Below are positions 15,335-37,782 of a stretch of DNA of 64,000 bases, piece by piece. Every line of letters begins with the position of its first letter. The stretch's first letter is position 1. The DNA lies in NCBI RefSeq assembly GCF_030409415.1, contig NZ_JAUFPW010000035.1, forward strand, positions 124,001-188,000, read 5' to 3'. This DNA is from Pedobacter aquatilis (GTDB taxonomy: Bacteria > Bacteroidota > Bacteroidia > Sphingobacteriales > Sphingobacteriaceae). The notes beneath the pieces were generated by a model. The model had not been told where the DNA came from. It saw only the letters and a program-made list of their open reading frames with translations, and made no database searches. Both the position numbers and the translations under genes were made by a program.

Positions 15335-17257
15335 ATGTATCAACTAACCATTATCCCATTGTTACATTACGTATTCAATCATCGAACTCAATTTCTGTTT
15401 TTGATAAAATCAAAAGCTATTGCCTATTTTATTTCATTTGTCTTTTTCACCTTAATCAGTGCTAAAATAAATGCTCAAATTCCACTTGCTATTGATGATG
15501 ATGCGCCGCATCAGATTTTTACTTACAATCAAATAGATATACTTGAGGATAAATCAGGGAAGTTAAATCTTAAAGAAGTACTTAGTCATGAAAATCAAGC
15601 ATTATTTAAGCCGAGTTTGAATAGAATACCAAAGAATGAAAATCATTCATCCACATATTGGTATCGGTTTAAAATTAATCATAATGCTTTATCCGCAAAT
15701 AGGTGGGTGCTCGAATTTTTTGACCAATCTATAGCTGATTTAACTCTTTACACCCCAAATGGTAAGCAAGATTATCAGTCTCATGTGTTTGGTACAGGTT
15801 ATAATTTTAGTAAAAGGGTATATCAACATAAAAATTTCACTTTCGATTTGATCAATAAAGCAGACGTTCAGCTTACTTATTATGTAAGAATTAAATCTCC
15901 ACATTCTGTAAGTGCCATTATTGTGCTAAGAGATTTGCATTGGTTTGTGGGTTATGCCCTGGGCGAATATTTTATTTTCGGTCTTTTCTATGGAATGATT
16001 ATCGTGTTTTGCCTATATAATTTACTAATGTATTTTGCGATTAAAGGAAAGCAATATCTTTTTTATGTGCTTTATAATCTAAGCATCGGACTTTATGAAA
16101 TGTGTAATGATGGAATCGCATTTCAATATCTTTGGCCAAATTTTCCGCTATTAAATATTTATGGTTTTGGTGTTGCCTTGTTTTTAAGCAGCATTTTTGG
16201 GATGCTTTTCACCTTAAACTTTCTATTTATAAAAGCAAAATCTCCAGCCTATTATAAGGTAATTGTTGCTTTAATAGTTCTTCGAAGCTTATTTTTTATT
16301 GCTTGCTTATTTTACACCCCGCTATTTAATTTTAAAATAGTCGAATTTATTCCACTTTTAGTGGTATTTATGGCAGGTTTTGATGTATACAGGAAGGGGT
16401 ACAAGCCTGCACTTTTTTTGATAATTGGCTACGGTTTCCTTGTTGCAGGCTTCAGCATAAAAATTTTGCTGCTTTTAAAGTGGCTACCTTATGGGCCGTT
16501 AGTTTACTACAGCCTGAGTATTTGCTTCGTTATAGAAATGGTAATAGTGTCTTTCGCCATTGGAAATAGTATCAGAACGCTTCGTAAAAAGAAAAGCGGG
16601 GCACAAAAAAGAGTTATTGAACAATTGAGGTTAAATGATAAACTTAATCAAACACTCAATGCCGAATTATCAATACTTGTAGAGCAGCGTACAGAAGAAA
16701 TTCAAACCAAAGCACAAATTATTGAACAACAGAATCTGGAAATTTCTTTAATGAATTCTATGTTGAAAAAGGATAATAACGAACTTAACCTAAACATAAC
16801 CCGAGCTACAAAAGCAAGGTTGAGTTCGAAAATGGTGGAATTTGAAGAGTTTAGCAGAATTTATCCTGATAAGGAACATTGTTATAAATATATTGCCGAA
16901 TTAAAGTGGTCTGGTGGTTATTGCTGCAAACGTTGTACAAACCAACATTTTTTAACTGGCCAAACTATTTACAGCAGGAGATGTACCAAATGTGGCTATG
17001 ATGAATCTGTAACGGCAAATACATTATTTCAAAACAGCAGAATTCCTATCAATAAAGCTTTGTACATGCTGTTTCTGGTTTGTAGCTCAAAGGGAACAAT
17101 ATCTTCCTACAAACTTTCCCAATTACTTTCTATTAGGCAAAGCACGTGCTGGACTTACAATTCTAAAATGCAAAAGTTGTTCAACCTTAAAAAGGATGAG
17201 ATAAAAAAAGCAGGTGAAGAAGGATGGAGCAAATTGCTGCTAACAGAACCTATTTAA
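15335..17257 (+). CDS. 7TMR-DISM membrane receptor fused to an IS1595-type transposase zinc-ribbon/HTH domain
   Basis: The 640-residue protein is a chimera. Residues 1-48 form a signal or anchor segment ending near KINAQ. Residues ~50-205 resemble the extracellular DISMED2 sensory domain (STYWYRFKI, WVLEFFDQSIADLTLYTP, YYVRIKS). Residues ~210-415 hold about seven hydrophobic helices of the 7TMR-DISM type. A coiled coil (about 425-495) follows. The C-terminus (499-640) is a zinc ribbon with Cys531-x2-Cys534 and Cys550-x2-Cys553, then a helical segment (ANTLFQNSRIPINKALYMLF, SYKLSQLLSIRQSTCW), the arrangement of the DNA-recognition part of IS1595-family transposases. The DDE catalytic domain is absent. 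7TMR-DISM proteins normally end in kinase, cyclase or similar outputs. The frame is uninterrupted, so this is likely a working membrane-bound DNA-binding receptor. It lies 236 bases upstream of susC. Confidence 0.82.
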   Translation: MYQLTIIPLLHYVFNHRTQFLFLIKSKAIAYFISFVFFTLISAKINAQIPLAIDDDAPHQIFTYNQIDILEDKSGKLNLKEVLSHENQALFKPSLNRIPKNENHSSTYWYRFKINHNALSANRWVLEFFDQSIADLTLYTPNGKQDYQSHVFGTGYNFSKRVYQHKNFTFDLINKADVQLTYYVRIKSPHSVSAIIVLRDLHWFVGYALGEYFIFGLFYGMIIVFCLYNLLMYFAIKGKQYLFYVLYNLSIGLYEMCNDGIAFQYLWPNFPLLNIYGFGVALFLSSIFGMLFTLNFLFIKAKSPAYYKVIVALIVLRSLFFIACLFYTPLFNFKIVEFIPLLVVFMAGFDVYRKGYKPALFLIIGYGFLVAGFSIKILLLLKWLPYGPLVYYSLSICFVIEMVIVSFAIGNSIRTLRKKKSGAQKRVIEQLRLNDKLNQTLNAELSILVEQRTEEIQTKAQIIEQQNLEISLMNSMLKKDNNELNLNITRATKARLSSKMVEFEEFSRIYPDKEHCYKYIAELKWSGGYCCKRCTNQHFLTGQTIYSRRCTKCGYDESVTANTLFQNSRIPINKALYMLFLVCSSKGTISSYKLSQLLSIRQSTCWTYNSKMQKLFNLKKDEIKKAGEEGWSKLLLTEPI

Positions 17258-17435
17258 CTAATGTTTTAGATATTTTTTCAGAAAAAAATAAATGTTTTTA
17301 AAGCGTATTAGTGATTATTTCACAATACGCTTTAATTGTATAGTTTGCATATATTCCATTATTTATCATTGCGGTTGAAACGTATTGCTTAGATTTATAA
17401 CTGTCTATTTAACAGTTAGTTATGAGTTATTTTTC

Positions 17436-17466
17436 TTGCTATTTGTTTTCAAATAGAATAGGTTTG
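17436..17466 (+). promoter_or_regulatory. Candidate Bacteroidota-type promoter for susC
   Basis: TAGGTTTG (17459-17466) matches the phylum's -7 consensus TAnnTTTG exactly. A TTG (17436-17438) lies 20 bases upstream, in the place of the -33 box. Transcription would start about 20 bases before the susC ATG at 17494. Two small inverted repeats (17399-17417 and 17439-17456) lie over and just upstream of it. Confidence 0.4.
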
Positions 17467-17493
17467 TGATTATAAATTTCTAAACCAAATAAT

Positions 17494-20400
17494 ATGAGAA
17501 AACAAATTACGCTACTTTTTAGCCTGGTTTGTTTTATGTTTTCGCTGGGGTATGCACAGCAGCTAAACATAAAAGGAACAATCAGGGACAAATCAGGAGC
17601 CGCCGTACCAGGGGTTTCCGTAAAAGTTAAAAATGCATCTTCAGGTGTATCTTCCGGTGGCGATGGTGAATATACCATATCAGCTGCTCCGCAGGCAATA
17701 CTAATATTTTCTGCCGTTGGTTATGCAAGTCAGGAAATTCCGGTTAACAGGCGTACAACTTTAAATGTAACATTAGCTGAAGAATCTCAGGATTTGACAG
17801 ATGTTGTTGTAATTGGATACGGAACGACAACCAAAAGAGATGCAACCGGTGCCATTTCAAGTGTAAAGGCAACCCAACTTGAAAATGAAAATCCACAGAG
17901 TTTATCTGATGTGCTGAGAGGCAATGTGCCGGGTTTATCGGTTGGTTTAAGCTCTAGTGCAAAGGGCGGTGGAGATTTCCTTGTTAGGGGAAAATCAACA
18001 CTTTCTGCAGGTAGTTCGCCACTTATTGTTTTAGATGGCGTTATTTACAATGGACAACTGGCCGATATTAATCCAAATGATATTGAATCTGTAGATGTTT
18101 TAAAGGATGCCAGTTCTTTGGCAGTTTACGGTGCTAAAGCGGCCACAGGCGTTATTGCCGTAACCACCAAAAAAGGTAGGGGAGATATGCCAACAATTAC
18201 CATAAATACCAATGCAGGTTTTGCCGAACTCGCCAAAAATATGCGTCCATATCAAGGGGAAGACTTTTTGAATTGGAGAGCAGATGTAATGAGGAGTGGC
18301 GCAATAACACCAGAATATTTATATAACGACCCAAGAAATTTGCCAACAGGCGTTTCCATCACACAATGGCTAAATGGACAAACCGGCGATCCGGTTGATT
18401 TATGGCTAAACAGACTTGGATTGGTTGCAAACGAAAAGGCAAACTATTTGGCTGGTAAAACCGAAAACTGGTATGATGATATCTTCAGAAAAGGCTTTCG
18501 TCAGGATCATACGCTTAGCCTTAGCGGGCGTAAACAGGAGGTTAACTATTATATGTCTTTAAATTATCAGAAAAACCAAAATCTGATAGAAGGTGGAGAG
18601 TACACGGCAATTCGTGGTCGTGTAAACCTGGAAGCAGAAGCAGCTAAGTTTCTGACTTTAGGCTTAAATCTTCAGTTTGCAGACCGGGATGAAGCACGCA
18701 CAGGAGATGGTAGCTTAGAAGCCGATTGGAATCAGCTAACTAACCTATCTCCCTATGGCGACAGGTACCTACCTAATGGAGAATTACGTAGAATTCCTAC
18801 TGATGACAGTGGGTTGAATGCAAGAAATCCATTCCTCGCAATGACGTACAATGAAAGGATGAATAAGCAAAACACAATTTTTGCAAGTCTTTATGGTAAA
18901 GTAAAATTACCATTTGGCATCACTTATCAGCTCAATTTTAGTCCGGGTTTAGATTTTTACAGAACTTTTGATTACCGTTCTTCCAGAAACCCTGATGTGG
19001 TTACACCAGGTGGTTCGGCTAGTCGTTCTAACGAAACCCGTTACAATTGGCAAATTGATAACCTCGTTAAATGGAATAAAACATTTGCAAGTATTCACAA
19101 TGTGGATGTAACCTTACTTGCCAATGCAGAAAAATATCAAACCTGGTGGACACAGGCAGCAAATGAAGGTTTTGTGCCTGGCGATGTGTTGAGCTACCAT
19201 AATTTATCAAGCGGTATTAAACCAACAACAAATAGTGAAGATAAGGTTTATACTGGTGATGCATTGATGGCAAGATTAAATTACACCCTTTTGCAACGTT
19301 ATATTTTAACACTTTCCGCCAGAAGAGATGGTTACTCTGTATTTGGCTTTAACTTCAAAAGAGCAACATTTCCTGCTGCAGCTTTTGCCTGGGTATTTAC
19401 CGATGAATCTTTTATGAAAGGCCAGAAATGGCTAGGTTATGGTAAACTTCGTGTTTCGTATGGCATAAATGGAAACCGTGATTTACGTAATCCAGATAAC
19501 GGAACAGTTGACCCATATGCGGCGCTTGCACAATTAGCAAGTGGTAAATATCAAACCGTAACGCCAAGTGGTGTAGCATCCGATGTAAATACGGTACAAA
19601 TTGGAAGTAAAATGGCAAACTCTAATTTGAAATGGGAAGAAACAACTGCATTAAACTTTGGATTAGATTTTTCAATTTTCAATGATAGAATAACCGGATC
19701 TATTGATGGTTTTACTAAAAAGACAAGCGATTTGTTGGTAAGACAAACTTTACCAAATGTTAGTGGCTATTCTACCGTTTATTCCAACCTTGCCCGTATT
19801 AATAATAAAGGAGGTGAATTTAACCTAACCACTAAAAACTTAACCGAAGGAAACATAAAATGGACCACCAACTTTAACGTTTCATTCAATCGGAATAAAA
19901 TCATTGCACTTGCACTTCCAACCGATGATCCGGGTAATGGATGGTTTATTGGAAAGGATATCGACATCATCTGGGATTATAACGTTCAGGGTGTATGGCA
20001 AACAAATGAAATGGCAGAGGCAGCTAAATTTACCAGAGCAGCAATTAAAGCCGGAGATTTTAAATTAGAAGATGTAAATGGAGATTATAACTATTCTGAT
20101 GCGGACAAGAAATTTTTGGGTTACCGTACACCCCGATATTTTCTGGCGATGAGGAACGAATTTAACATCTTTAAAAACTTCGATTTTTCATTTCAATTGC
20201 TTTCAAATTGGGGGCAATTAAAACAATACAATCAGGCTAAAAACCAACCGGGTAGTGTAGGTTTTGCAAGAGCTTCATCTTATGTTTTACCTTATTGGAC
20301 ACCAAACAACCCAATTAATGATTACGCAAGGCTAAATTCAGGTTCAAGCGGTACAAGCTACAATCTTTATTGGGATAATTCCTTTATCCGCCTAAATACT

Positions 20401-20580
20401 GTTGCACTTTCTTATTCAGTTCCTCAAAATTTGCTGGGTAAACTTAGGGTTAAAACGGCCAAAATTTATGCAAACGTAACCAATGCTGGTTATTATGCTC
20501 CTCAATGGACTTTCTGGGACCCTCAGAACAATGGGCCAACACCGAGATTTTATACTTTAGGCCTCAATGTTACATTATAA
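17494..20580 (+). CDS. SusC/RagA family TonB-dependent outer-membrane transporter
   Basis: The 1028-residue protein has a signal peptide (ending near GYAQ, residue 22), a CarboxypepD_reg-like beta-sandwich (about 25-100; GTIRDKSGAAVPGVSVKVKN), a TonB plug (about 110-235; VVVIGYGTTTKRDATGAISS and PLIVLDGVIYNGQ) and a long beta-barrel. The C-terminus ends in the aromatic-rich outer-membrane pattern RFYTLGLNVTL. It lacks the N-terminal STN domain, so it is not the FecR/sigma-signalling type. It imports oligosaccharides using TonB energy and pairs with the SusD encoded 12 bases downstream. Downstream lyase and GH88 genes suggest an acidic, uronate-containing glycan. The receptor gene at 15335 is a possible regulator by position. 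Confidence 0.95.
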   Translation: MRKQITLLFSLVCFMFSLGYAQQLNIKGTIRDKSGAAVPGVSVKVKNASSGVSSGGDGEYTISAAPQAILIFSAVGYASQEIPVNRRTTLNVTLAEESQDLTDVVVIGYGTTTKRDATGAISSVKATQLENENPQSLSDVLRGNVPGLSVGLSSSAKGGGDFLVRGKSTLSAGSSPLIVLDGVIYNGQLADINPNDIESVDVLKDASSLAVYGAKAATGVIAVTTKKGRGDMPTITINTNAGFAELAKNMRPYQGEDFLNWRADVMRSGAITPEYLYNDPRNLPTGVSITQWLNGQTGDPVDLWLNRLGLVANEKANYLAGKTENWYDDIFRKGFRQDHTLSLSGRKQEVNYYMSLNYQKNQNLIEGGEYTAIRGRVNLEAEAAKFLTLGLNLQFADRDEARTGDGSLEADWNQLTNLSPYGDRYLPNGELRRIPTDDSGLNARNPFLAMTYNERMNKQNTIFASLYGKVKLPFGITYQLNFSPGLDFYRTFDYRSSRNPDVVTPGGSASRSNETRYNWQIDNLVKWNKTFASIHNVDVTLLANAEKYQTWWTQAANEGFVPGDVLSYHNLSSGIKPTTNSEDKVYTGDALMARLNYTLLQRYILTLSARRDGYSVFGFNFKRATFPAAAFAWVFTDESFMKGQKWLGYGKLRVSYGINGNRDLRNPDNGTVDPYAALAQLASGKYQTVTPSGVASDVNTVQIGSKMANSNLKWEETTALNFGLDFSIFNDRITGSIDGFTKKTSDLLVRQTLPNVSGYSTVYSNLARINNKGGEFNLTTKNLTEGNIKWTTNFNVSFNRNKIIALALPTDDPGNGWFIGKDIDIIWDYNVQGVWQTNEMAEAAKFTRAAIKAGDFKLEDVNGDYNYSDADKKFLGYRTPRYFLAMRNEFNIFKNFDFSFQLLSNWGQLKQYNQAKNQPGSVGFARASSYVLPYWTPNNPINDYARLNSGSSGTSYNLYWDNSFIRLNTVALSYSVPQNLLGKLRVKTAKIYANVTNAGYYAPQWTFWDPQNNGPTPRFYTLGLNVTL

Positions 20581-20591
20581 GCATTACGAAA

Positions 20592-22466
20592 ATGAAAAAA
20601 TTAAACAAAAATATATTAGTATTTCTAGGATTTATTGGGCTAATTACAACAGCTGGCTGCAAAAAAACTTATTTAGATTCTGAGCAACTGTCTGCTTATG
20701 CTCCTGAAAATCTAAACAGTTTGGTTGCAATGAAGGCCGCATTAAACGGATTAGGATTGGCAACCAGAAGGGAGTTCTTCGGCGATTCGGCCCCCATGTT
20801 AACTGAATCAATTTTTTCTGATGTGGCTGTTGAAGGTACCACAGATAAAAATACACCTGCACAAGATTTAGTTTCCAGAATTACGCCTGATGCAAATTTG
20901 AATAGTGATGATTTTAATAAAATAGGATGGTATTGGGACAATGAATTCATCGCTGTTAGGCAAGCAAATACCATAATTTCTAATATTGATAAGCCAACTT
21001 ATTCATCTGAAGCAGAAAAAAATCTAATTCTGGGTTCAGCGCTTTTTTATCGAGCTTACAACTACTATAGATTAGTTCATCAGTTTGGAGATGTGCCATT
21101 ATTGTTAAAGGATTTGGATTCGCCAAGGGCTGATTTTTATTCTACCAAACGGGAGGTAATTTTGGCCAAACTTAAAGCAGATTTAGAATTTGCCCAGAAT
21201 TGGGTAACTGATGGCGGTAATAAAGGCGATGTAAGCAAAGGCGCAGTTAGTCATTTATTAACAAAAGTTAACCTGGCTTTAGCCAATTTTGATGATGCAA
21301 TTACTTCTGCAAATAATGTAATAAATGGCGGGAGATATGGAATTATGACCACTCGTTTTGGTAGTACAGCAGCCGATGCGACAAAGAATGTAGTTTGGGA
21401 TTTACATCGGATGGATAATAAATCTTTAGCCGCTAACAGAGAAGCCCTTTTCTTGGTTATTGATAGGGAAAATTTTGTTGGTTTCACAGCAAACGGTTCT
21501 CAATTAATGAGAAATACAGTGCCAGCCTGGCATTTCGCAAATGTAAAAACGCCTTCTGGAGCAACCGCAATTGTTGATGCGGTAACAGCGGAAATTCCTT
21601 TAACTAGAATGTATGGTAGAGGTATTGGCCGTTACAGAGGTACGCCTTACTCAACAAAATACATTTGGACTGATAATACAGATTATCGCCATGCAAAAGG
21701 AATGTGGATGGATATGACCGATTTAGTTTACAATAATCCGGCACTTAAAACCTCTACAAACGCTGCAGATAGAGCACTTTACGGACAACCATTACAACAA
21801 TATTCATCATCAAATCTTTCTCAGAGATTTACAAACGGAGCGCTTGATACCATCAGACACTGGTTTGGATGGCCACATTACAAGGTATTTATCAACTCGA
21901 CTAACGCACTGGCTAACGATCCTTACTGGACTCCGCCACGCGGTACAAATACAGATTGGTATGTGTTTCGCCTTGCCGAAACTTATTTGCTTCGAGCCGA
22001 AGCTTACTACTGGAAAGGCGATTTAGGCCTTGCTATGGCTGATTTAAATGTGGTGAGGGCGAGGGCAAATGCAACGCTATTTACAAATGCCAGCCAAATT
22101 AATATCGGAACAATACTCGATGAAAGAGCAAGGGAGCTTTATTGGGAAGAACCACGTAAAACAGAGTTAACCAGAATTGCTTACATTTTTGCACAAACCG
22201 GAAAAGCGGCATATAATGGTAAAAGTTATAATATGGCAACTTTCTCTGATAATAATTTTATGTACGATAGAATAATAGAGAAAAATGATTTTTACAAAAA
22301 TCAGGTACCAACATTACAGGGTGTAAATTATAAAATAGCACCTTTTCATGTGTTATGGCCTATTCCTGCAAGTGCACAAAGGTTTAATACCGAAGGTAGA
22401 ATAAATCAGAATAAAGGATATGCAGGTTTTGAGCAAAATGTTCCGGCGCTTGATAAGTTACCTTAA
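20592..22466 (+). CDS. RagB/SusD family outer-membrane lipoprotein
   Basis: From the ATG at 20592 the product has 624 residues; the in-frame upstream codons overlap the susC end and are not needed. The lipobox ends TTAGC, so Cys23 is lipidated. Helical TPR-like segments typical of SusD follow: LILGSALFYRAYNYYRLVHQ, then FGDVPLLLKDLDSPRADF, and near the end YVFRLAETYLLRAEAYYWKG with ILDERARELYWEEPRKTEL. It is a surface glycan-binding lid for the SusC encoded immediately upstream. A strong terminator follows at 22520-22553. Confidence 0.95.
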   Translation: MKKLNKNILVFLGFIGLITTAGCKKTYLDSEQLSAYAPENLNSLVAMKAALNGLGLATRREFFGDSAPMLTESIFSDVAVEGTTDKNTPAQDLVSRITPDANLNSDDFNKIGWYWDNEFIAVRQANTIISNIDKPTYSSEAEKNLILGSALFYRAYNYYRLVHQFGDVPLLLKDLDSPRADFYSTKREVILAKLKADLEFAQNWVTDGGNKGDVSKGAVSHLLTKVNLALANFDDAITSANNVINGGRYGIMTTRFGSTAADATKNVVWDLHRMDNKSLAANREALFLVIDRENFVGFTANGSQLMRNTVPAWHFANVKTPSGATAIVDAVTAEIPLTRMYGRGIGRYRGTPYSTKYIWTDNTDYRHAKGMWMDMTDLVYNNPALKTSTNAADRALYGQPLQQYSSSNLSQRFTNGALDTIRHWFGWPHYKVFINSTNALANDPYWTPPRGTNTDWYVFRLAETYLLRAEAYYWKGDLGLAMADLNVVRARANATLFTNASQINIGTILDERARELYWEEPRKTELTRIAYIFAQTGKAAYNGKSYNMATFSDNNFMYDRIIEKNDFYKNQVPTLQGVNYKIAPFHVLWPIPASAQRFNTEGRINQNKGYAGFEQNVPALDKLP

Positions 22467-22852: not shown

Positions 22853-24037
22853 ATGAGAAAAAATATTTTAATATACATTTTGATTCTGCTAGGGCTATCT
22901 TCAACAGGTTTCTCTGTAACTAAAAATCGGCAGACCGTTGCTGTAAAAAAAGTGGTTCAAAATGTTTTAAAAAAACAAATATTAGCAGATGCAGCCTGGG
23001 CAATGAAACAAAAGCCCATTACGGTTACCGCTCATTATTCTTCCAGAAGCGCAGGCGGAATACATGATTTTTTTTCTGAAGCGGATTATTTTTGGCCTGA
23101 CCCACAAAATCCTGATGGACCGTACATTAACAGAGATGGCATGACTAACCCTGATAATTTCATCGAACACCGAAAAGCCATGATTCGTTTTAGTAAAATT
23201 ATTGGCGCACTTTCGTCAGCTTATATTCTAACAGGAAAAGATATTTATATAAAGCATGCAGTTTCGCATTTAAAAGCATGGTTTGTTGATTCAAAAACCC
23301 TGATGAATCCAAGTTTACTTTTTGCACAAGCTGTTAAAGGTCGTTTTACGGGGCGCAATTATGGTATTATCGATACTATTCATTTAATGGAGGTAGCACA
23401 AGGAACATTAGTTATGGAAAAATCAAATGCTTTTGATAAGGAAACATTAACTACTGTAAAAAAATGGTTTTCTGACTATATCCTGTGGTTAAATACATCA
23501 AAGCCAGGCATACAAGAGAAAACAGTTAAAAATAATCATGCAACCTGCTGGGCAATGCAAGTAGCATCTTTTGCAAAATTATGTGGAGATGAAAACATGC
23601 TTGATTCTATTAGAAATAACTTTAGAAATAATTTGCTACCAAATCAAATGGCTGTAGATGGAAGCTTTCCACTTGAGATGGCTCGTACTAAACCTTATGG
23701 TTATGCTATTTTTAATTTGGATGCAATGACAATGCTTTGCCATATATTATCAACAGAAAAAGAAAACCTCTGGAAGTTTGAAACTTCAGATGGAAAATCA
23801 ATAAAAAAGGGGATAGAATTTTTATATCCCTTTATTACAGATAAAAGCAAATGGACATTAAAGCCAGATGTAATGTATTGGAACAATTGGCCAGTTGCAC
23901 AGCCGTTTCTTGTTTTCGGTGCAAAAGCGTATGGTGCACAAAACTGGCTTAAAACCTGGAAAAATTTAGATCATAAACCTCAGGTAGAAGAGGTTATCAG
24001 AAATATGCCTATCCGAAATCCCTTAATATGGTTATAA
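22853..24037 (+). CDS. Polysaccharide lyase of the alginate-lyase fold (PF05426-like; PL5/PL38-type)
   Basis: The 394-residue protein has a signal peptide (residues 1-21) and an all-helical (alpha/alpha) body. Recognisable segments are ADYFWPDPQNPDGPYINRDG, HLKAWFVDSKTLMNPSLLFA, YGIIDTIHLMEVAQG and KNNHATCWAMQVASF (Asn228-His229), which fit the alginate_lyase family PF05426. Such enzymes cleave uronic-acid polymers by beta-elimination, with Asn/His neutralising the carboxylate. The characterised substrates of this fold include polymannuronate (PL5) and, in PL38, glucuronan or mannuronan. Because the next gene is a GH88 unsaturated glucuronyl hydrolase, a glucuronate-containing polymer is more likely than alginate. 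The stop codon lies inside the next gene's upstream region (3 bases before its ATG), so the two genes are co-transcribed. Confidence 0.82.
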   Translation: MRKNILIYILILLGLSSTGFSVTKNRQTVAVKKVVQNVLKKQILADAAWAMKQKPITVTAHYSSRSAGGIHDFFSEADYFWPDPQNPDGPYINRDGMTNPDNFIEHRKAMIRFSKIIGALSSAYILTGKDIYIKHAVSHLKAWFVDSKTLMNPSLLFAQAVKGRFTGRNYGIIDTIHLMEVAQGTLVMEKSNAFDKETLTTVKKWFSDYILWLNTSKPGIQEKTVKNNHATCWAMQVASFAKLCGDENMLDSIRNNFRNNLLPNQMAVDGSFPLEMARTKPYGYAIFNLDAMTMLCHILSTEKENLWKFETSDGKSIKKGIEFLYPFITDKSKWTLKPDVMYWNNWPVAQPFLVFGAKAYGAQNWLKTWKNLDHKPQVEEVIRNMPIRNPLIWL

Positions 24038-24039
24038 TT

Positions 24040-25233
24040 ATGAAACAAAAAATTAAAATATTGTTACTGATAATGCTGTGCGGTAGTGTAGCGCAGGCGC
24101 AAAAAAACAATATTAAAAAAGCGTTTGCTTCCGCAGAAAAACAAATGGAAGTACTGATTAAAAATGTAGATTCTGCAAGAAAAATTAAACCAAATTTGGT
24201 TTCGCCCAGAACGGTAGAAAACGGACAGTTTAAAATGGTTAACTCCAGAGATTGGACGAGTGGTTTTTTTGCGGCAGAACTTTGGTATTTGTATGCTTAT
24301 ACCAAAAATGAAAAGTGGCTAAATCTTGCTAAAAAATATACAGAGGATGTTAAAAAAGAGCAATTTAATAAAGGTACACACGATTTAGGTTTTATGATTT
24401 ATTGTCCGTTTGGTAATGGCTATAAATTAACGAATGATACCGCTTATCGAGGTGTAATTGTTCAGGCGGCAAAGTCACTTTCTACAAGATTTAACCAAAC
24501 TTCAGGCGTAATAAAATCTTGGGACCATAATGGAGATAAATGGAAATTTCCGGTAATAATTGATAATATGATGAACCTTGAACTGCTTTTCGAGGCTACA
24601 AAATTTACCGGAGATTCTTCATTCTATAAAATTGCAATTAGTCATGCAGATAATACTATAAAAAACCATTTCAGACCAGATTTTAGTTCATACCATGTGA
24701 TAGATTACGACACAACGCAGTATGGAAAAGTACGCCAAAAGGTTACTGCGCAAGGTTATGCAAATGAATCTTCATGGGCTCGTGGGCAAGCCTGGGCATT
24801 GTATGGGTATACGATGTGCTTCCGGGAAACTAAAAAACAGACTTACTTAAATCAAGCTGATGGAATTGCTGCATTTATTTTAGACTCTAAAATAACGCCA
24901 AAGGATGGTGTTCCATATTGGGATTATAATGACCCATTAATACCCAATACATCAAGAGATGCTTCTGCTGCTGCCATAACGGCTTCGGCACTTTATGAGC
25001 TGGCTGAATATAGTGCTAATGCTAAAAAATACCGTGCGGCTGCCGATAAAATTTTAAATTCTTTAGCTTCTGGGTACACCAATAACACTGGAGAAAATTA
25101 TGGTTTTCTGTTAAAACATAGTACAGGTCATCGCCCTGTTAAATCAGAAATTGATGTACCAATAAATTACGCTGATTATTATTATTTGGAAGCACTTTTT
25201 CGGAGCAACAATAACTCAATAAAATTGAACTGA
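24040..25233 (+). CDS. Glycoside hydrolase family 88, unsaturated glucuronyl hydrolase
   Basis: The product is 397 residues from the ATG at 24040. An ATG at 24028 overlaps the lyase stop and would add four residues before a clean signal peptide (residues 1-20, ending VAQA). The (alpha/alpha)6 fold shows the two key aspartates of UGL enzymes, GTHDLGFMIY (Asp115) and PVIIDNMMNLELL (Asp175), at the same spacing as Asp88/Asp149 of the Bacillus enzyme. WARGQAWALYGYT and INYADYYYLEAL complete the signature. GH88 removes the 4,5-unsaturated uronate left at the non-reducing end by polysaccharide lyases through hydration of the double bond. It therefore completes the job of the lyase encoded 3 bases upstream. 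Assignment is strong. Confidence 0.92.
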   Translation: MKQKIKILLLIMLCGSVAQAQKNNIKKAFASAEKQMEVLIKNVDSARKIKPNLVSPRTVENGQFKMVNSRDWTSGFFAAELWYLYAYTKNEKWLNLAKKYTEDVKKEQFNKGTHDLGFMIYCPFGNGYKLTNDTAYRGVIVQAAKSLSTRFNQTSGVIKSWDHNGDKWKFPVIIDNMMNLELLFEATKFTGDSSFYKIAISHADNTIKNHFRPDFSSYHVIDYDTTQYGKVRQKVTAQGYANESSWARGQAWALYGYTMCFRETKKQTYLNQADGIAAFILDSKITPKDGVPYWDYNDPLIPNTSRDASAAAITASALYELAEYSANAKKYRAAADKILNSLASGYTNNTGENYGFLLKHSTGHRPVKSEIDVPINYADYYYLEALFRSNNNSIKLN

Positions 25234-32429: not shown

Positions 32430-32562
32430 ATAAGATAAGAGTGCAGTCTTGAAACAGAATTTGCCTGGCAGCTTAAATTTAACGATGCTTGGTTGCATTA
32501 CTATTTTTTTTAACTTTATTTTAATCGCACTTTAACAGGTGAACTTTAGCTTTGTTTTAACT

Positions 32563-33129
32563 ATGAGCACGAACCAAACTGAAGATTTTGAGCTTTTATT
32601 GCAGTTGAGTAATGATGATGAAAAAGCATTTGATCAATTGTTTGCCAAGTATTATCCGGGTTTAATAAGGTTTTGCAAATCGCTGCTTCAATCATCAGAT
32701 GGCGAAGCAGAAGATTTTGTGCAGGATGTTTTTGTTAAACTTTGGCAAGGCCGAAAGACGCGATCTATACACACCGCATTAAATTCCTTTTTATACACTT
32801 CGGTTAAAAATAAAGTTTACGATCATTTCCGAAAAAACAAGATTCGTGCTTTTGTTTCAGTTGATTTTATTGAGGATAAGCCGATAGAAAATTATCAAAG
32901 TCCGGATCAGGTGCTGATGTATAAGGAACTCCATCTGGATATTCACCAAATGATTGCCTTATTGCCCGAAAGAACTGAACTCGTATTTAGAATGAACCGA
33001 CATGACCATCTTTCTTACGAAGAAATAGCAAAAATGCTCGGCATTTCCCTAAATTCGGTTAAAACTCACATGTATCGAGCTTTAAAATTCCTGAAAGAAA
33101 ACTTTCGTCATTACAATTCCCCTTCTTAA
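32563..33129 (+). CDS. ECF-type RNA polymerase sigma factor
   Basis: From the ATG at 32563 the product has 188 residues; an in-frame GTG at 32539 would extend it by eight. Region 2 is seen in AFDQLFAKYYPGLIRFCK and EDFVQDVFVKLW, and region 4 in LPERTELVFRM and SYEEIAKMLGISLNSVKTHM. It belongs to the Bacteroidota ECF group that works with FecR-type anti-sigma factors and STN-bearing SusC transporters. The anti-sigma gene follows after 100 bases and susC after that. Activation is expected when substrate binds SusC and the signal passes through the STN domain to FecR, freeing this sigma factor. Confidence 0.94.
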   Translation: MSTNQTEDFELLLQLSNDDEKAFDQLFAKYYPGLIRFCKSLLQSSDGEAEDFVQDVFVKLWQGRKTRSIHTALNSFLYTSVKNKVYDHFRKNKIRAFVSVDFIEDKPIENYQSPDQVLMYKELHLDIHQMIALLPERTELVFRMNRHDHLSYEEIAKMLGISLNSVKTHMYRALKFLKENFRHYNSPS

Positions 33130-33229
33130 TGTTAAGTAATTGTTAATCATATTACTTTTTTGTTAAATGTAATTAATCTTGTAAGGATGTGATTATACTT
33201 TTTCGTCTTCCTTTTAAATACAACAGACA

Positions 33230-34225
33230 TTGGAAGAAAAAGAAATTTATTTATTAATTACACGATACCTGCAAAAGCAAACAACTACAGAAGAAAACGA
33301 AGTTCTCGCAGATTGGATTACAGATTCTGCAAAGAATGAGCAAACTTTTGAGGAGATTAAACTAACCTGGCAATACACTGTTTTTTCCAAAACGGAAGAA
33401 AGTGCCGATGCCCTTACAAGATTAAAATCAAGAATAAAACTTCATGAAGAGGAGAATATCGCAATCAAGAAACTGAATCCTTTTATGTGGAAAATGGTTG
33501 CAGCAAGTCTTGCCGCCATATTCATCGTTTCTTTTGGTCTTTACTATTTTTTGAAGCCTTCTCACGCAGCTAAAACCGAAATACTTATGGTAAGCACACG
33601 TTCAGGGGAAATGAAAAACATAACCTTAACTGATGGAACCAAAATATCGGTGGGGCCAAAAAGTATATTGCGCTATCCTGCAGTTTCTGTTGGTAATGAA
33701 CGAAATCTAGAATTAGATGGTGAGGCTTACTTTGAAGTTAGTAAAAATCCGCACAAACCCTTCCGCGTTAAAACTGCCGATTTAATTGTAAAAGTATTAG
33801 GAACGCATTTTAATGTTAATGCCAAAAAGAACCAAAAAGTAACAACCGTATCACTTCTGGAAGGCAAAGTTGAAGTTAACCTTAATGGTGACAAAGATGA
33901 TGCTTATTTGCTAAAGCCTGGTCAGGAACTTTCTTTTGACAGGAGCAGTCTTCGTATGTTTCAACGTAGCCTTGACAGTGTAAATGTGTTGGGCTGGATG
34001 ACTAAAACGCTCACTTTTAGTAATGAAAAATTGAGCGATGCTGCAGTTAAAATAGAAAATATGTATGGTGTTAAAATCATCTTTGCCGACCAAGCCACAG
34101 CCGATACACGCATTTATGCACAGTTTAAGGGCGATAAATTGGAAGATGTACTTACGATTATTTGCGCACCAGGAAATTTAGAATATCGTAAACAAGGAAA
34201 TAAAATTTACATAAACGCTAAGTAA
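33230..34225 (+). CDS. FecR family anti-sigma factor
   Basis: The 331-residue protein starts at a TTG. An in-frame stop at 33215 leaves no upstream ATG, and the first internal ATG would delete the cytoplasmic domain, so TTG is the likely start. It has a cytoplasmic anti-sigma part (1-85), one transmembrane helix (about 86-110) and a periplasmic FecR domain (about 120-215; TRSGEMKNITLTDGTKISVG and GEAYFEVSKNPHKPF). A C-terminal DUF4974-like domain (about 255-330) contains FSNEKLSDAAVKIENMYGVK. It links the STN domain of the next gene's SusC to the sigma factor encoded just before. Family and role are clear. Confidence 0.94.
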   Translation: MEEKEIYLLITRYLQKQTTTEENEVLADWITDSAKNEQTFEEIKLTWQYTVFSKTEESADALTRLKSRIKLHEEENIAIKKLNPFMWKMVAASLAAIFIVSFGLYYFLKPSHAAKTEILMVSTRSGEMKNITLTDGTKISVGPKSILRYPAVSVGNERNLELDGEAYFEVSKNPHKPFRVKTADLIVKVLGTHFNVNAKKNQKVTTVSLLEGKVEVNLNGDKDDAYLLKPGQELSFDRSSLRMFQRSLDSVNVLGWMTKTLTFSNEKLSDAAVKIENMYGVKIIFADQATADTRIYAQFKGDKLEDVLTIICAPGNLEYRKQGNKIYINAK

Positions 34226-34284
34226 TGAAATAGAAAGAAAAGAATTAAGACTGTGTTAAGCATAGTCACCTTAAAAAAAAGAAA

Positions 34285-34305
34285 CCGGCATGGTCGAGAT
34301 GCCGG
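34285..34305 (+). promoter_or_regulatory. Stem-loop between fecR and susC
   Basis: CCGGCAT (34285-34291) and ATGCCGG (34299-34305) form a 7-bp GC-rich stem with a 7-base loop, 52 bases before the susC start. No T run follows, so it is more likely an mRNA-processing or attenuation structure than a terminator. Confidence 0.45.
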
Positions 34306-34356
34306 CTATTAATCGCCAAATAAACACTAAAATTTAATTAACGAATTTGCTAATTT

Positions 34357-37300
34357 ATGAAAAAAAAGATCTACAATGCGTCTTTAATTTCGTTGAAAAA
34401 TGGTTTTACAATAGCCTGTCTATTGATGACTTTTTTCAACACTGCTTTTGCCAACCCTGGAAGAAACGCAGAAAAGAGTCTTGCCGAGGTAAAGTGCTCC
34501 ATCAAAATGAACAACCAATCTTTGGAAAATGTTTTTAACGTAATCCACAAACAAACCAATTTTAGCTTTGTATGTGTAGATCGTAATGGTTTTATGCAGA
34601 AACAAGTCAGCTTAAATGAAACCAACAGCAACTTAGAACAAGTGCTTAAGAAAATTTCATCGGCTGTGCCATTTACCTACACCAAGCTAAGCAATAAAAT
34701 TATTTTAAAACCATTAGAGAAATTGACCAACATCGAAGTGCCGAGAATTATCAAAGGTCATGTTACCGATAAAGATAATCAGGGTATTCCGGGTGTTTCA
34801 GTATTAATTAAAGGTACCAATACGGGTACAGTTACCAATCAAGATGGCGATTTCTCAATCAAAGCCGATAATGGTGCTGTTCTCGTATTTAAGAGTATTG
34901 GTTACCAAATTAAGGAAGTTTCTGTTGATGATGCAAACGCTTACAAAATTGAATTGCTCGAAGACAGTAAGGCATTATCAGAAGTGGTGGTTACTGCCCT
35001 CGGTATTAAAAAAGAACGTGCTAAATTGGGTTACGTAGTTCAGGAAGTTCAGGGCGAAAATTTAGTAAAAGCCAGAGAACCAAACATTATTAATTCACTT
35101 ACCGGTCGTGTGGCTGGTTTAAACATTACCAATTCAACCGACCTGTTTCAAGACCCGGGCATTTCATTAAGGGGTAGAAAACCCCTTGTTGTTATTGATG
35201 GTATTCCAGATCAATCGGCAGATTTATATCGTGTGAATGCTGATGATGTTGAATCGGTAACCGTTTTAAAAGGTGCAAATGCTTCCGCATTATATGGTTC
35301 AATCGGGCAGAATGGTGCCATTATGATTACCACCAAACGTGGTAAGGGCAAAGATTTAAGTATTGATGTAAATAGTTCCACGCAAATTCAGCCAAGTTTT
35401 ATCCGCATTCCTGAAGTACAAACGGAATATGGCGCAGGTTTTAAAGGTAAGTATACTTATGTTGATGGCTCAGGTGGTGGGCCAGAAGGTTCAGGCTGGA
35501 TTTGGGGACCAAAATTAGACCAACCAGATCCTACAACGCCGAGTGGCTTTTTTGAAACACCTCAGTTCAACAGTCCGAGAAATCCGGTTACTGGCCAGTT
35601 GGTTCCGTTGCCTTTTATCTCAAGAGGAAAAAATAATGTTAAAGATTTCTTCCAAACAGGATTAATAGCGAGTAACAACATCAGTATTACTCAGAGTGGA
35701 GATAAAGGTTCTTTCCGGGCATCAGCTTCGCATATTTACCAACGTGGTATTGTACCAAATACTGATTTACAAAACAGTTCATTCAATATTTCAGGAAATT
35801 ATAAGTTATCAGAAAACTTCACGGTTGATGCTAGATTAAATTATAACCGCCAGTTTACTAAAAACTTCCCTGAAACAGGTTATGGGCCAACAAACTATCT
35901 ATATAACTTAATTTTATGGACAGGTGCCGACGTAAGTGTTGAAGATTTGAGAGATTATTGGATTCCGGGTAAAGAAGGTATTCAACAGCGTAATTATAAT
36001 ACTTCGTACTATAATAATCCATATTTTCAGGCTTATGAATATTTAAGAGGTTACGATAAAGACAATACTTTCGGTTCACTAAATCTTAACTACAAGATAA
36101 GTCCATCTTTTAGTGTTCAATTTAGAAACGGTATCAACGGTTACGGTTTAAATCGTACTTACAAAGAGCCAATGAGTTATATCGGTTACGGTAATAAATC
36201 AAGAGGGCAATTTACCGTTGCAACCGGAAATTATATAGATTTAGTTTCGGATTTGATTGGTGATTACAACCACACTTTTACCGATAAATTTAAGTTACAC
36301 GCACAAGTTGGTGCAGCAAACTATTACAGAAATCACAAATATGGTTCTACCAGTACAGATGGTTTAACCATTCCGGGTTTTTATAATTTAAGCAATTCTG
36401 CAAACCCAATTCAGGGTAATAACTTTGTAGAAGAAAGACGTACAAGTAGTTTGTATGCGGTTTTAGATTTAGAATTTTTAAATGCAATTTACTTAACTGC
36501 AACTGGAAGAAACGATGTTATTTCTACGTTACCAACTGCAAATAATAGCTTTTTCTATCCATCGGTGACTACATCTGTGGTGGTTTCTCAACTTACTAAA
36601 TTGCCAAAGTGGTTTAGTTATTTAAAAGCTCGTGGTTCATGGTCGAGGGTTTCTAGTGCAACTTTAAATGATAACGCTTACACTTACAGTTATTTGCCAT
36701 CATTTAATAAGGGCACAATTTGGAATAGTGTTCCTTCTTTAACCTTTGGTGATGCTTTGCTAAATGGAAATCTTATACCTCAAACTTCTGACAGCTGGGA
36801 GGTTGGTGTAGATACTAAATTCTTCAATAATAGATTAAGTTTAGAGGCAACTTATTATCAAACCAAAGATTTTAACAATATTGTTTCAATCCCAACATCA
36901 ATAACAAGTGCATACAACAGCCAATTGGCAAATGGTAACGTTTTCCAACGTAAGGGTTTAGAGTTTGTACTTTCTGGAACGGTTTTAAAAAGCAGCGATT
37001 TCAGCTGGAACATGGCGGTTAACTTAAGTAAATACCGCAGATACCTTAAAGAAATTTATGGCGGTGCTGAAACCCTAAACTTTTTAAGAGTTGGCGATCG
37101 TACCGATAAAATCTTCACTTCAGTTTATCAAACCAACAGTCAGGGACAATTTATTTATGGTAGTAATGGTTTTCCGTTGAATGATACTTTCTCTAGATTT
37201 TTAGGTTATCAATCTCCAGACTGGACATATGGTATCGAAAATACCTTCAATTACAAAGCCTTTACTTTAAAGTTTTTGGTTGATGGACGTTTAGGCGGTA

Positions 37301-37782
37301 TGATGTATTCTACTACTAACCAAAAAATGTGGTGGGGTGGAACTAATCCTGGAACGCTTAACCAATATCGTGTAGATGCAAATGCAGGCAGATCTACATT
37401 TATTGGCGACGGTGTGGTTGTGGTTAGCGGTGCAGCTACTTATGATGCGAATGGAAACATTACCAGCGATACCCGCGTTTTTGCTCCAAATACAAGAGCG
37501 GTAAACTACATCGATTATATGACCAACACCAGTAACGGCGCTTATAACAACTACAATTACTTCTCGCAAACTTTCTTAAAATTAAGAGAGGTAACCATCG
37601 GTTGGCAAGTGCCAAGTAAGTTATTAGGTAAATCTTTTATCAAAGGACTTGATTTCTCAATTGTAGGACGTAACCTGCTCTTATTCTCAAAAATGCCAAA
37701 CGTAGATCCTGATCCAGCTTCAGATAATCTACAAACACCATCAACACGTTCATTTGGCTTTAATGTAAACCTTAAGTTTTAA
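34357..37782 (+). CDS. SusC/RagA TonB-dependent transporter with STN signalling domain
   Basis: The 1141-residue protein has a signal peptide (about 1-33), an N-terminal secretin/TonB STN domain (about 45-110; KCSIKMNNQSLENVFNVIHK and FVCVDRNGF), a CarboxypepD_reg-like domain (about 128-205), a plug (about 210-335; VVVTALGIKKERAKLGYVVQ, VVIDGIPDQS) and a large beta-barrel ending FGFNVNLKF. The STN domain marks it as a signal-transducing transporter that talks to the FecR protein encoded upstream. It pairs with the SusD encoded 11 bases downstream. Because the only hydrolase in this locus is an NPP-type phosphatase, the imported substrate may be phosphorylated rather than a plain glycan. Confidence 0.95.
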   Translation: MKKKIYNASLISLKNGFTIACLLMTFFNTAFANPGRNAEKSLAEVKCSIKMNNQSLENVFNVIHKQTNFSFVCVDRNGFMQKQVSLNETNSNLEQVLKKISSAVPFTYTKLSNKIILKPLEKLTNIEVPRIIKGHVTDKDNQGIPGVSVLIKGTNTGTVTNQDGDFSIKADNGAVLVFKSIGYQIKEVSVDDANAYKIELLEDSKALSEVVVTALGIKKERAKLGYVVQEVQGENLVKAREPNIINSLTGRVAGLNITNSTDLFQDPGISLRGRKPLVVIDGIPDQSADLYRVNADDVESVTVLKGANASALYGSIGQNGAIMITTKRGKGKDLSIDVNSSTQIQPSFIRIPEVQTEYGAGFKGKYTYVDGSGGGPEGSGWIWGPKLDQPDPTTPSGFFETPQFNSPRNPVTGQLVPLPFISRGKNNVKDFFQTGLIASNNISITQSGDKGSFRASASHIYQRGIVPNTDLQNSSFNISGNYKLSENFTVDARLNYNRQFTKNFPETGYGPTNYLYNLILWTGADVSVEDLRDYWIPGKEGIQQRNYNTSYYNNPYFQAYEYLRGYDKDNTFGSLNLNYKISPSFSVQFRNGINGYGLNRTYKEPMSYIGYGNKSRGQFTVATGNYIDLVSDLIGDYNHTFTDKFKLHAQVGAANYYRNHKYGSTSTDGLTIPGFYNLSNSANPIQGNNFVEERRTSSLYAVLDLEFLNAIYLTATGRNDVISTLPTANNSFFYPSVTTSVVVSQLTKLPKWFSYLKARGSWSRVSSATLNDNAYTYSYLPSFNKGTIWNSVPSLTFGDALLNGNLIPQTSDSWEVGVDTKFFNNRLSLEATYYQTKDFNNIVSIPTSITSAYNSQLANGNVFQRKGLEFVLSGTVLKSSDFSWNMAVNLSKYRRYLKEIYGGAETLNFLRVGDRTDKIFTSVYQTNSQGQFIYGSNGFPLNDTFSRFLGYQSPDWTYGIENTFNYKAFTLKFLVDGRLGGMMYSTTNQKMWWGGTNPGTLNQYRVDANAGRSTFIGDGVVVVSGAATYDANGNITSDTRVFAPNTRAVNYIDYMTNTSNGAYNNYNYFSQTFLKLREVTIGWQVPSKLLGKSFIKGLDFSIVGRNLLLFSKMPNVDPDPASDNLQTPSTRSFGFNVNLKF

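Follow-up and report, generated by a model that had tools for sequence, protein, structure and literature searches.

SusR is described in the available text of two papers (PMC3878776, PMC11216935) as a one-component activator of the susCD locus that spans the inner membrane. Operators of SusR-like regulators are predicted there as direct repeats with an unusually long spacing of 67 or 77 bp. For Proteobacteria, the accessible part of PMC8092284 lists a ChiS-family DNA-binding domain fused to 7TMR-DISM.

Here we analysed a stretch of 64,000 nucleotides from Pedobacter aquatilis, referred to as the window, which contains a receptor gene directly ahead of genes for the use of complex sugars. From its sequence the receptor is probably a direct on-switch for these adjacent genes, a reading that follows from a DNA-gripping piece of an old transposon at the end of the receptor and from adjacent sugar-use genes that carry a matching repeated tag. 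In broader terms, we consider it highly probable that the receptor is a membrane-embedded one-component activator of polysaccharide-utilization loci, with a transposase-derived output whose DNA binding is predicted. Environmental Bacteroidota carry many polysaccharide loci, and for part of them a conserved receptor family is named here together with its likely operator and targets.

Domain organisation of the receptor and its tail

The receptor possesses all features of the 7TMR-DISM class, i.e. the seven-helix domain PF07695, an extracytoplasmic DISMED domain and a C-terminal intracellular output, which is in this case the IS1595-type tail (Table 1). In a PDB search the DISMED2 sensor profile of relatives resembled the RetS sensor domain (3jyb/2xbz, E 2e-7 to 3e-7). 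In the AlphaFold2 model of the full receptor (mean pLDDT 82.6) a single helix joins the membrane part to the tail. The tail modelled alone reached a mean pLDDT of 87. Among the Pfam matches of the receptor up to E 10 there was no histidine kinase, receiver or AraC HTH, and likewise no sigma-70 region or FecR/anti-sigma domain. Judged by its domains, the receptor is a member of the 7TMR-DISM receptors and not a hybrid two-component system (HTCS); it is also not a transposase, because the DDE domain is absent. The initial annotation had proposed a 7TMR-DISM receptor with a DISMED2 domain and about seven helices in residues 50-415, with which the Pfam domains at 65-198 and 211-410 agree. Its view of an intact frame lacking the DDE catalytic domain was borne out too: the 640-aa frame is open and the match to the transposase model NF033547 covers only the start of that model.

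Table 1. Receptor, candidate regulatory elements and predicted target genes (positions within the window)
Feature	Position	Strand	Basis and remarks
Receptor gene, 640 aa	15335..17257	+	Open frame from ATG 15335 to stop 17257; full-length relatives
7TMR-DISMED2 periplasmic sensor domain, residues 65-198	15527..15928	+	PF07696 E 3e-29; RetS-like profile match
Seven-helix 7TMR-DISM_7TM domain, residues 211-410	15965..16564	+	PF07695 E 8e-40; helices in model
Long helix / coiled-coil linker, residues 393-498	16511..16828	+	AlphaFold2, low confidence 476-499
IS1595-type zinc ribbon, residues 512-555, CxxC...CxxC	16868..16999	+	PF12760; four Cys in 115/115
IS1595-type helical/HTH region, residues 567-619 (IRQSTCW)	17033..17191	+	NF033547 start; R601, T604 in 115/115
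Predicted operator copy 1, AAGCGTATTA	17301..17310	+	Inverted partner on minus strand 17323-17332
Predicted operator copy 2, AAACGTATTG	17378..17387	+	77 bp from copy 1
Bacteroidota-type promoter-like element TTG-N20-TAGGTTTG	17436..17466	+	48 bp past copy 2, 27 bp before susC ATG
susC-like TonB-dependent transporter gene, predicted target	17494..20580	+	TIGR04056 over cut-off (G000:C29:141566-144577); Plug domain
susD-like gene, predicted target	20592..22466	+	PF07980 E 3e-39; start hand-chosen in frame
Alginate-lyase-family gene (PF05426), predicted target	22853..24037	+	E 1e-84
GH88-type (unsaturated uronyl hydrolase family) gene, predicted target	24028..25233	+	PF07470 E 1e-13

The C-terminal 142 residues had been read from the start as the zinc ribbon and HTH of an IS1595 transposase, with Cys531, Cys534, Cys550 and Cys553 as zinc ligands. 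Rather than a tail devoid of similarity to IS1595 ribbons, we found a match of PF12760 (Zn_ribbon_IS1595) to residues 512-555 with E 6e-4 when the full protein was searched and 1.3e-4 for the isolated tail, where the score of 22.2 bits lies below the Pfam cut-off of 25.4. Just past the ribbon, positions 1-55 of the 215 positions of NF033547 (NCBIfam IS1595 transposase) matched the tail with E 1.1e-4, at a score of 22 bits that is far under the cut-off of 75. Since this match ends at position 55 of 215, it stops ahead of the catalytic part; the receptor ends soon after. These weak scores of the single sequence are made good by the matches in relatives: PF12760 was found at E ≤0.01 in 28 of 29 aligned relatives and PF07695 together with PF07696 in all 29. 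Moreover, the tail is about 40% identical over 115 residues to 300-residue IS1595-type transposases (L072, L077). The four cysteines were kept in all 115 distinct receptors, among which R549, E557, R601 and T604 were also invariant. The profiles, the transposase relatives and the tree described below all agree with the initial assignment.

The tree comprised 92 tail-like domains, namely 56 receptor tails hand-picked for spread and 36 transposase-like or solitary proteins. It was obtained by a quick method from 142 columns with a midpoint root and contains many unresolved forks. The 56 receptor tails formed one group (SH-aLRT 84) beside, not among, the transposases and transposase-like proteins. 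Nearest to this group was a long branch formed by a tail protein that stands alone, followed by IS1595-type proteins. One fusion of a receptor with a transposase tail would be the simplest, though not a proven, reading of the tree.

A PDB sequence search returned no solved relative of the tail. Fold comparison gave a best Foldseek E of 1.2, and a second fold search gave Z ≤4.3 with generic helical DNA-binding folds; this absence of a solved relative does not show a new fold. The helix-sheet-helix domain of the ChiS family did not occur among the listed fold matches to the tail, all of which were weak.

Several other proteins with similarity to the tail were encountered. A stand-alone protein of 137-151 aa (L091/L222, G405:C69) consists of the tail only; in the tree it has a long branch and is placed next to the tails of the receptors. 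A single genome (G407; L088, L210-L218) carries ten diverged IS1595-like proteins in frames of 306-339 aa, in which the catalytic VDE...GG signature seems to be lost as judged by eye. Inverted repeats flanked three of nine fetched copies, with one good case (L217, 26/30) and two weak ones, and no susC was seen inside the short flanks of these genes. They may represent a second domestication. A same-genus genome (L243, G239:C81) contains what appears to be a complete gene for an IS1595-type transposase, together with short inverted repeats ATTGAAATAGGC; by profile score its product ranks among the nearest to the receptor tails.

The linker bears on a different reading of the receptor, in which it is a membrane-tethered precursor and cleavage by a protease sets the tail free to act as a soluble transcription factor. 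The low model confidence at residues 476-499, just ahead of the tail, would suit a cleavable linker, and two truncated relatives, as read by eye, keep only one membrane helix, the linker and the tail. The linker varies in length, yet it keeps invariant residues across the 29 aligned relatives, which exceeds the needs of a passive tether. We consider such cleavage unlikely and favour a receptor that acts from within the membrane.

Conservation and gene neighbourhood

When the full-length protein was used as query, 194 of 251 family genomes had a match, a number in which tail-less receptors are counted too. The match reached through the tail in at least 85 of the 251 genomes (hand count among the matches listed). 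In a sample drawn across the phylum, the tail profile matched in 52 of 395 genomes, mostly in separate short proteins such as transposases, while receptor and tail occurred in one frame in 11 of the 395. Named relatives include Pedobacter, Albibacterium, Pararcticibacter, Siphonobacter, Sporocytophaga, Agaribacillus, Fulvivirga and Cyclobacteriaceae. The 115 receptors (contig set included) fell into 36 clusters at 65% identity, 26 of which contain a susC-linked member. The receptor family is thus real and conserved. The expectation of the initial annotation that relatives share the architecture held, and its counter-case, a tail that is absent elsewhere, did not. A chance recent insertion in one strain is ruled out by the widespread tail-bearing homologues.

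In the window the receptor gene is followed by susC, susD, the PF05426 alginate-lyase-family gene and the GH88 gene. We compared this order with 80 regions around tail-bearing receptors, which were hand-picked with the neighbours unseen from about 100 such places among the matches listed. As controls served 20 regions around tail-less 7TMR-DISM genes, mostly from other related genomes. Our profile recognised 83 tail-bearing receptors and 18 controls in these regions, two control regions having fallen out. The next gene was a same-strand susC for 48 of the 83 tail-bearing receptors versus none of the 18 tail-less ones (Fisher P 2e-6, relatedness ignored), and for six more of the 83 a susC was found at most three genes away. 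A next gene of any kind on the same strand was present for 75/83 receptors and 13/18 controls. In the contig set susC came next for 20 of 41 tail-bearing genes and lay within three genes for 8 more. The spacer between receptor and susC measured 232-864 bp with a median of 309 bp (69 pooled cases).

No susC was located within three genes of the other 29 receptors; for these we scanned the next same-strand genes, which amounted to 24 distinct genes (four receptors gave none and two share one). Glycoside hydrolases or lyases made up 15 of the 24 (GH30 6, GH2 5, PF05426 2, GH20 1, GH18 1). Control neighbours carried a response-regulator domain in 9/16 cases, a GH-family domain in 0/16 and a 3-keto-disaccharide hydrolase in 1/16. 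As to the link to particular loci that the initial annotation had asked about, susC adjoins 48 of the 83 receptors, and the receptors belong to many different polysaccharide loci and not to one operon.

Some further observations concern the surroundings of susC. In Cyclobacteriaceae (L057, L059-L062) a gene of about 600 aa is located between receptor and susC, with PKD domains in the L057 copy. The window itself contains a second susC-like gene (34357, within 32539-37782) with genes for an ECF sigma factor and a FecR-type protein ahead of it, which is the usual regulator pair for susC-type loci.

The candidate operator

The receptor-susC spacers contain a direct repeat, AARCGTATYR, whose copies are mostly 76-94 bp apart (34 of the 37 receptor-susC spacers with at least two sites). 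The motif was first spotted by eye in the very spacers that were later used for counting, and the follow-up tests below therefore weigh more. Using the core RCGTATYR, 63 distinct receptor-susC spacers gave 93 forward versus 10 reverse sites (forward 3.78 per kb), with at least one site in 54 and at least two in 37 of them. A further 30 receptor spacers contained 32 forward sites and one reverse site. In 22 other susC upstream regions 10 forward and no reverse sites were found; four of these regions had two or more sites, some of them where one gene parts receptor and susC. The strands were nearly balanced upstream of the receptors (7 forward, 9 reverse in 81 regions) and in 259 other intergenic regions of the same loci (23 forward, 21 reverse; 0.33 and 0.30 per kb). 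The 96 control regions (22 kb) held no forward site and one reverse site. Overall, a strict pair, as defined below, follows 48 of the 115 distinct receptors and at least one site follows 75. In the spacers of L165 (G115) and L063 operator copies one base off the pattern were read by eye.

Downstream of the sites we scanned for a promoter-like pattern, TTG-N17-22-TAnnTTT[GA], within 150 bp of a site. The element in the window is called Bacteroidota-type after the promoter consensus of this group. Of 93 distinct spacers, 73 contained a site and 58 a site together with a promoter-like element. The distance from motif to promoter was 36, 46-48 or 57-58 bp in 47 of these 58, i.e. it changed in steps of about one helical turn, where the bins were set after viewing the data and related spacers are not independent.

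The computed results are compatible with either sign of regulation, and the receptor could be a repressor or anti-activator that its ligand releases from the operator. The sites are, however, situated upstream of the promoter-like element and not across it, in a fixed helical phase (47/58), which is the usual geometry of an activator; the analogous SusR is also an activator according to the available text of PMC3878776. Repression thus appears improbable, and activation is the reading we pursue.

Genome-wide searches were carried out for the strict pair AARCGTATYR-N66-90-AARCGTATYR with the reversed pattern as control. The whole 4.6-Mb genome contains two strict pairs and no match of the reversed control. 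One pair is that of the window (17301-17387); the other (G000:C28:233-330) is followed by a PF05426 gene at a distance of 167 bp. Only two genes in the genome match PF05426, one in the locus of the window and the other directly behind the C28 pair. The motif as a general feature of susC was rejected: this genome has 42 susC genes that exceed the family cut-off, only one of them has a strict pair, and 20 receptor-less genomes have none. The four other susC upstream regions with two or more sites speak against this rejection.

These latter genomes are part of a same-genus set of 51 genomes among the matches listed plus that of the window, 32 with and 20 without receptor. The receptor-bearing genomes overlap the motif discovery set, the receptor-less ones do not. 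A strict pair was found in 27/32 genomes with receptor versus 0/20 without (Fisher P 4e-10, relatedness ignored). The five receptor genomes in which it was absent are G115, G120, G185, G194 and G203. The reversed control pattern matched once in the 52 genomes. The tail profile confirmed the split: the 20 receptor-less genomes have only short tail-like proteins of 151-324 aa, present in four of them.

The same-genus set contained 41 pairs, 26 within 1 kb of a tail and 15 not. The latter were the C28 site, one pair before susC in L170, one before the receptor in L038 and 12 others that we fetched. Among these 12, five were located directly ahead of susC-susD and one each before GH30, GH3-GH30, GH88 and PL14, the GH88 gene sitting beside a PF05426 gene. 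Three of the four single cases are 2.7-5.1 kb from a receptor and therefore belong to the same locus. Three of the 12 fetched pairs look like chance. In L038 the strict pair (150-244) is found upstream of the receptor gene at the contig start and a GH9/ThuA gene comes right after the receptor; autoregulation of this receptor is possible.

Two related loci (L052:5464-6429, L055:5605-6429) encode truncated relatives without DISMED2 or 7TM domain, read by eye as a single membrane helix, the linker and the tail. There, susC is divergent and upstream, and the pair, with a spacing of 78 and 79, is still directed towards susC, whose promoter-like box follows after 48 bp. Because these pairs face susC, the site is to be assigned to susC, and it accompanies the tail rather than the sensor or the receptor gene's 3' end.

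These data also bear on an indirect action, where AARCGTATYR is the site of a separate factor on which the receptor acts via its tail. Zinc ribbons are also able to mediate protein contacts, which would allow for such a role. However, the pair is absent from 20/20 same-genus genomes without receptor and it persists where the sensor half is lost and the tail is kept (L052, L055), such that we regard an intermediate factor as very unlikely. It is most implausible that the repeat belongs to the 3' end or the terminator of the receptor gene: copy 1 does make inverted repeats in the window and in some other spacers, but copy 2 is phased to the promoter-like element, pairs located away from any receptor precede susCD and lyase genes, and in the divergent loci (L052, L055) the pair belongs to susC. 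Taken as a site for the tail itself, the repeat strongly supports, together with the susC linkage, the early guess that the spacer 17258-17493 regulates the adjacent SusCD operon; this support comes from comparative genomics.

An origin of the operator as a relic of transposon ends is not supported by the present data. The inverted repeats found near related IS1595-type genes are without the operator core; the genes that gave repeats include L072, L077, L076, L220, L223 and L243, while several relatives gave none.

Four distant receptors (L067-L070) have a changed recognition helix, LRRNT[IV]W, and no strict operator pair. The L067 receptor (LRRNTIW) adjoins genes for a fumarase-type lyase and RecJ, not a sugar locus, and the neighbours of L070 (LRRNTIW) resemble those of L067, matched by gene size only. 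L068 and L069, likewise with a changed helix, have susC-susD next.

Proposed mechanism and comparison with known systems

We propose that the periplasmic DISMED2 domain would bind a glycan breakdown product, and that the seven helices and the long helix would relay the change to a pair of cytoplasmic tails. By its homology, each tail is a zinc-ribbon/HTH DNA-binding part that was captured from an IS1595 transposase. The tails may bind a pair of GKTWTTNAARCGTATCA-like sites in direct orientation, separated in most cases by 76-94 bp, with which they are associated across genomes, and a receptor dimer would then span both operator copies. The bound sites would sit on a helix face set by the promoter about 47 bp downstream, as the observed distances suggest. 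Given these positions, the tails would recruit RNA polymerase and thereby cause transcription of susCD and the lyase/hydrolase genes. Target genes would mostly adjoin the receptor gene and sometimes be located elsewhere in the genome. For the window the predicted regulon comprises susC, susD, the PF05426 lyase and GH88 genes as well as the only other PF05426 gene of the genome.

One operator core is common to receptors of less than 65% identity, and some genomes hold several receptors: two in several same-genus genomes and three in G076 and G174 (among the matches listed). With a shared core and several receptors per genome, either the flanking bases would give specificity or the signals would be pooled. 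A more far-reaching scenario is that a single capture of the transposase DNA-binding domain founded an unrecognised class of regulators of polysaccharide loci across Sphingobacteriales and Cytophagales. Its dimers would hold the operator copies over a 76-94 bp loop like a transposase holds transposon ends, with the pairing logic kept as a switch. We put this forward tentatively and consider it doubtful. If the proposed mechanism is true, the receptor would be a clear example from bacteria of a transmembrane protein that uses a domesticated transposase DNA-binding domain as its output. A periplasmic sugar signal would then reach a promoter without the help of a kinase.

We found no literature on a transposase-type output of 7TMR-DISM receptors or on 7TMR-DISM at susCD loci among the matches listed in a search of mostly freely accessible papers. 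The receptor family appears undescribed, and the evolutionary source of its output is unusual. The novelty initially assigned to it has to be narrowed: a DNA-binding output on 7TMR-DISM is not wholly new given the ChiS-family fusions (PMC8092284, available part), while we did not find a transposase-type output described. The ChiS-family fusion resembles the receptor in that a 7TMR-DISM part ends directly in a DNA-binding domain, and ChiS acts at the promoter of chb, which serves chitin use. In contrast, its domain is a proteobacterial helix-sheet-helix, for which the accessible text of PMC8092284 gives neither a transposase origin nor a susCD link.

Like the HTCS of Bacteroidetes, as far as the available descriptions go, the receptor is one membrane polypeptide that would sense fragments of a glycan and control the adjacent susCD locus. 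Signalling in HTCS proceeds through a histidine kinase, a receiver and an AraC HTH, none of which was detected in the receptor. IS1595-family transposases have the zinc ribbon and the following helices/HTH in common with it; the receptor differs by being without DDE and by its fusion to a sensor.

The SusR-like regulators of Bacteroides are compared here by their published description in the text available to us. Like them, the receptor spans the membrane and belongs to a susCD locus, and it would likewise be a one-component activator with a C-terminal DNA-binding part. Long-spaced direct repeats at susCD promoters are also shared, with a spacing of 76-94 bp between the predicted sites in our case. 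The sensor of SusR is not described as 7TMR-DISM in the accessible parts of PMC3878776 and PMC11216935, where its DNA-binding part is called unlike known ones. The best reading is that the receptor would work like SusR.
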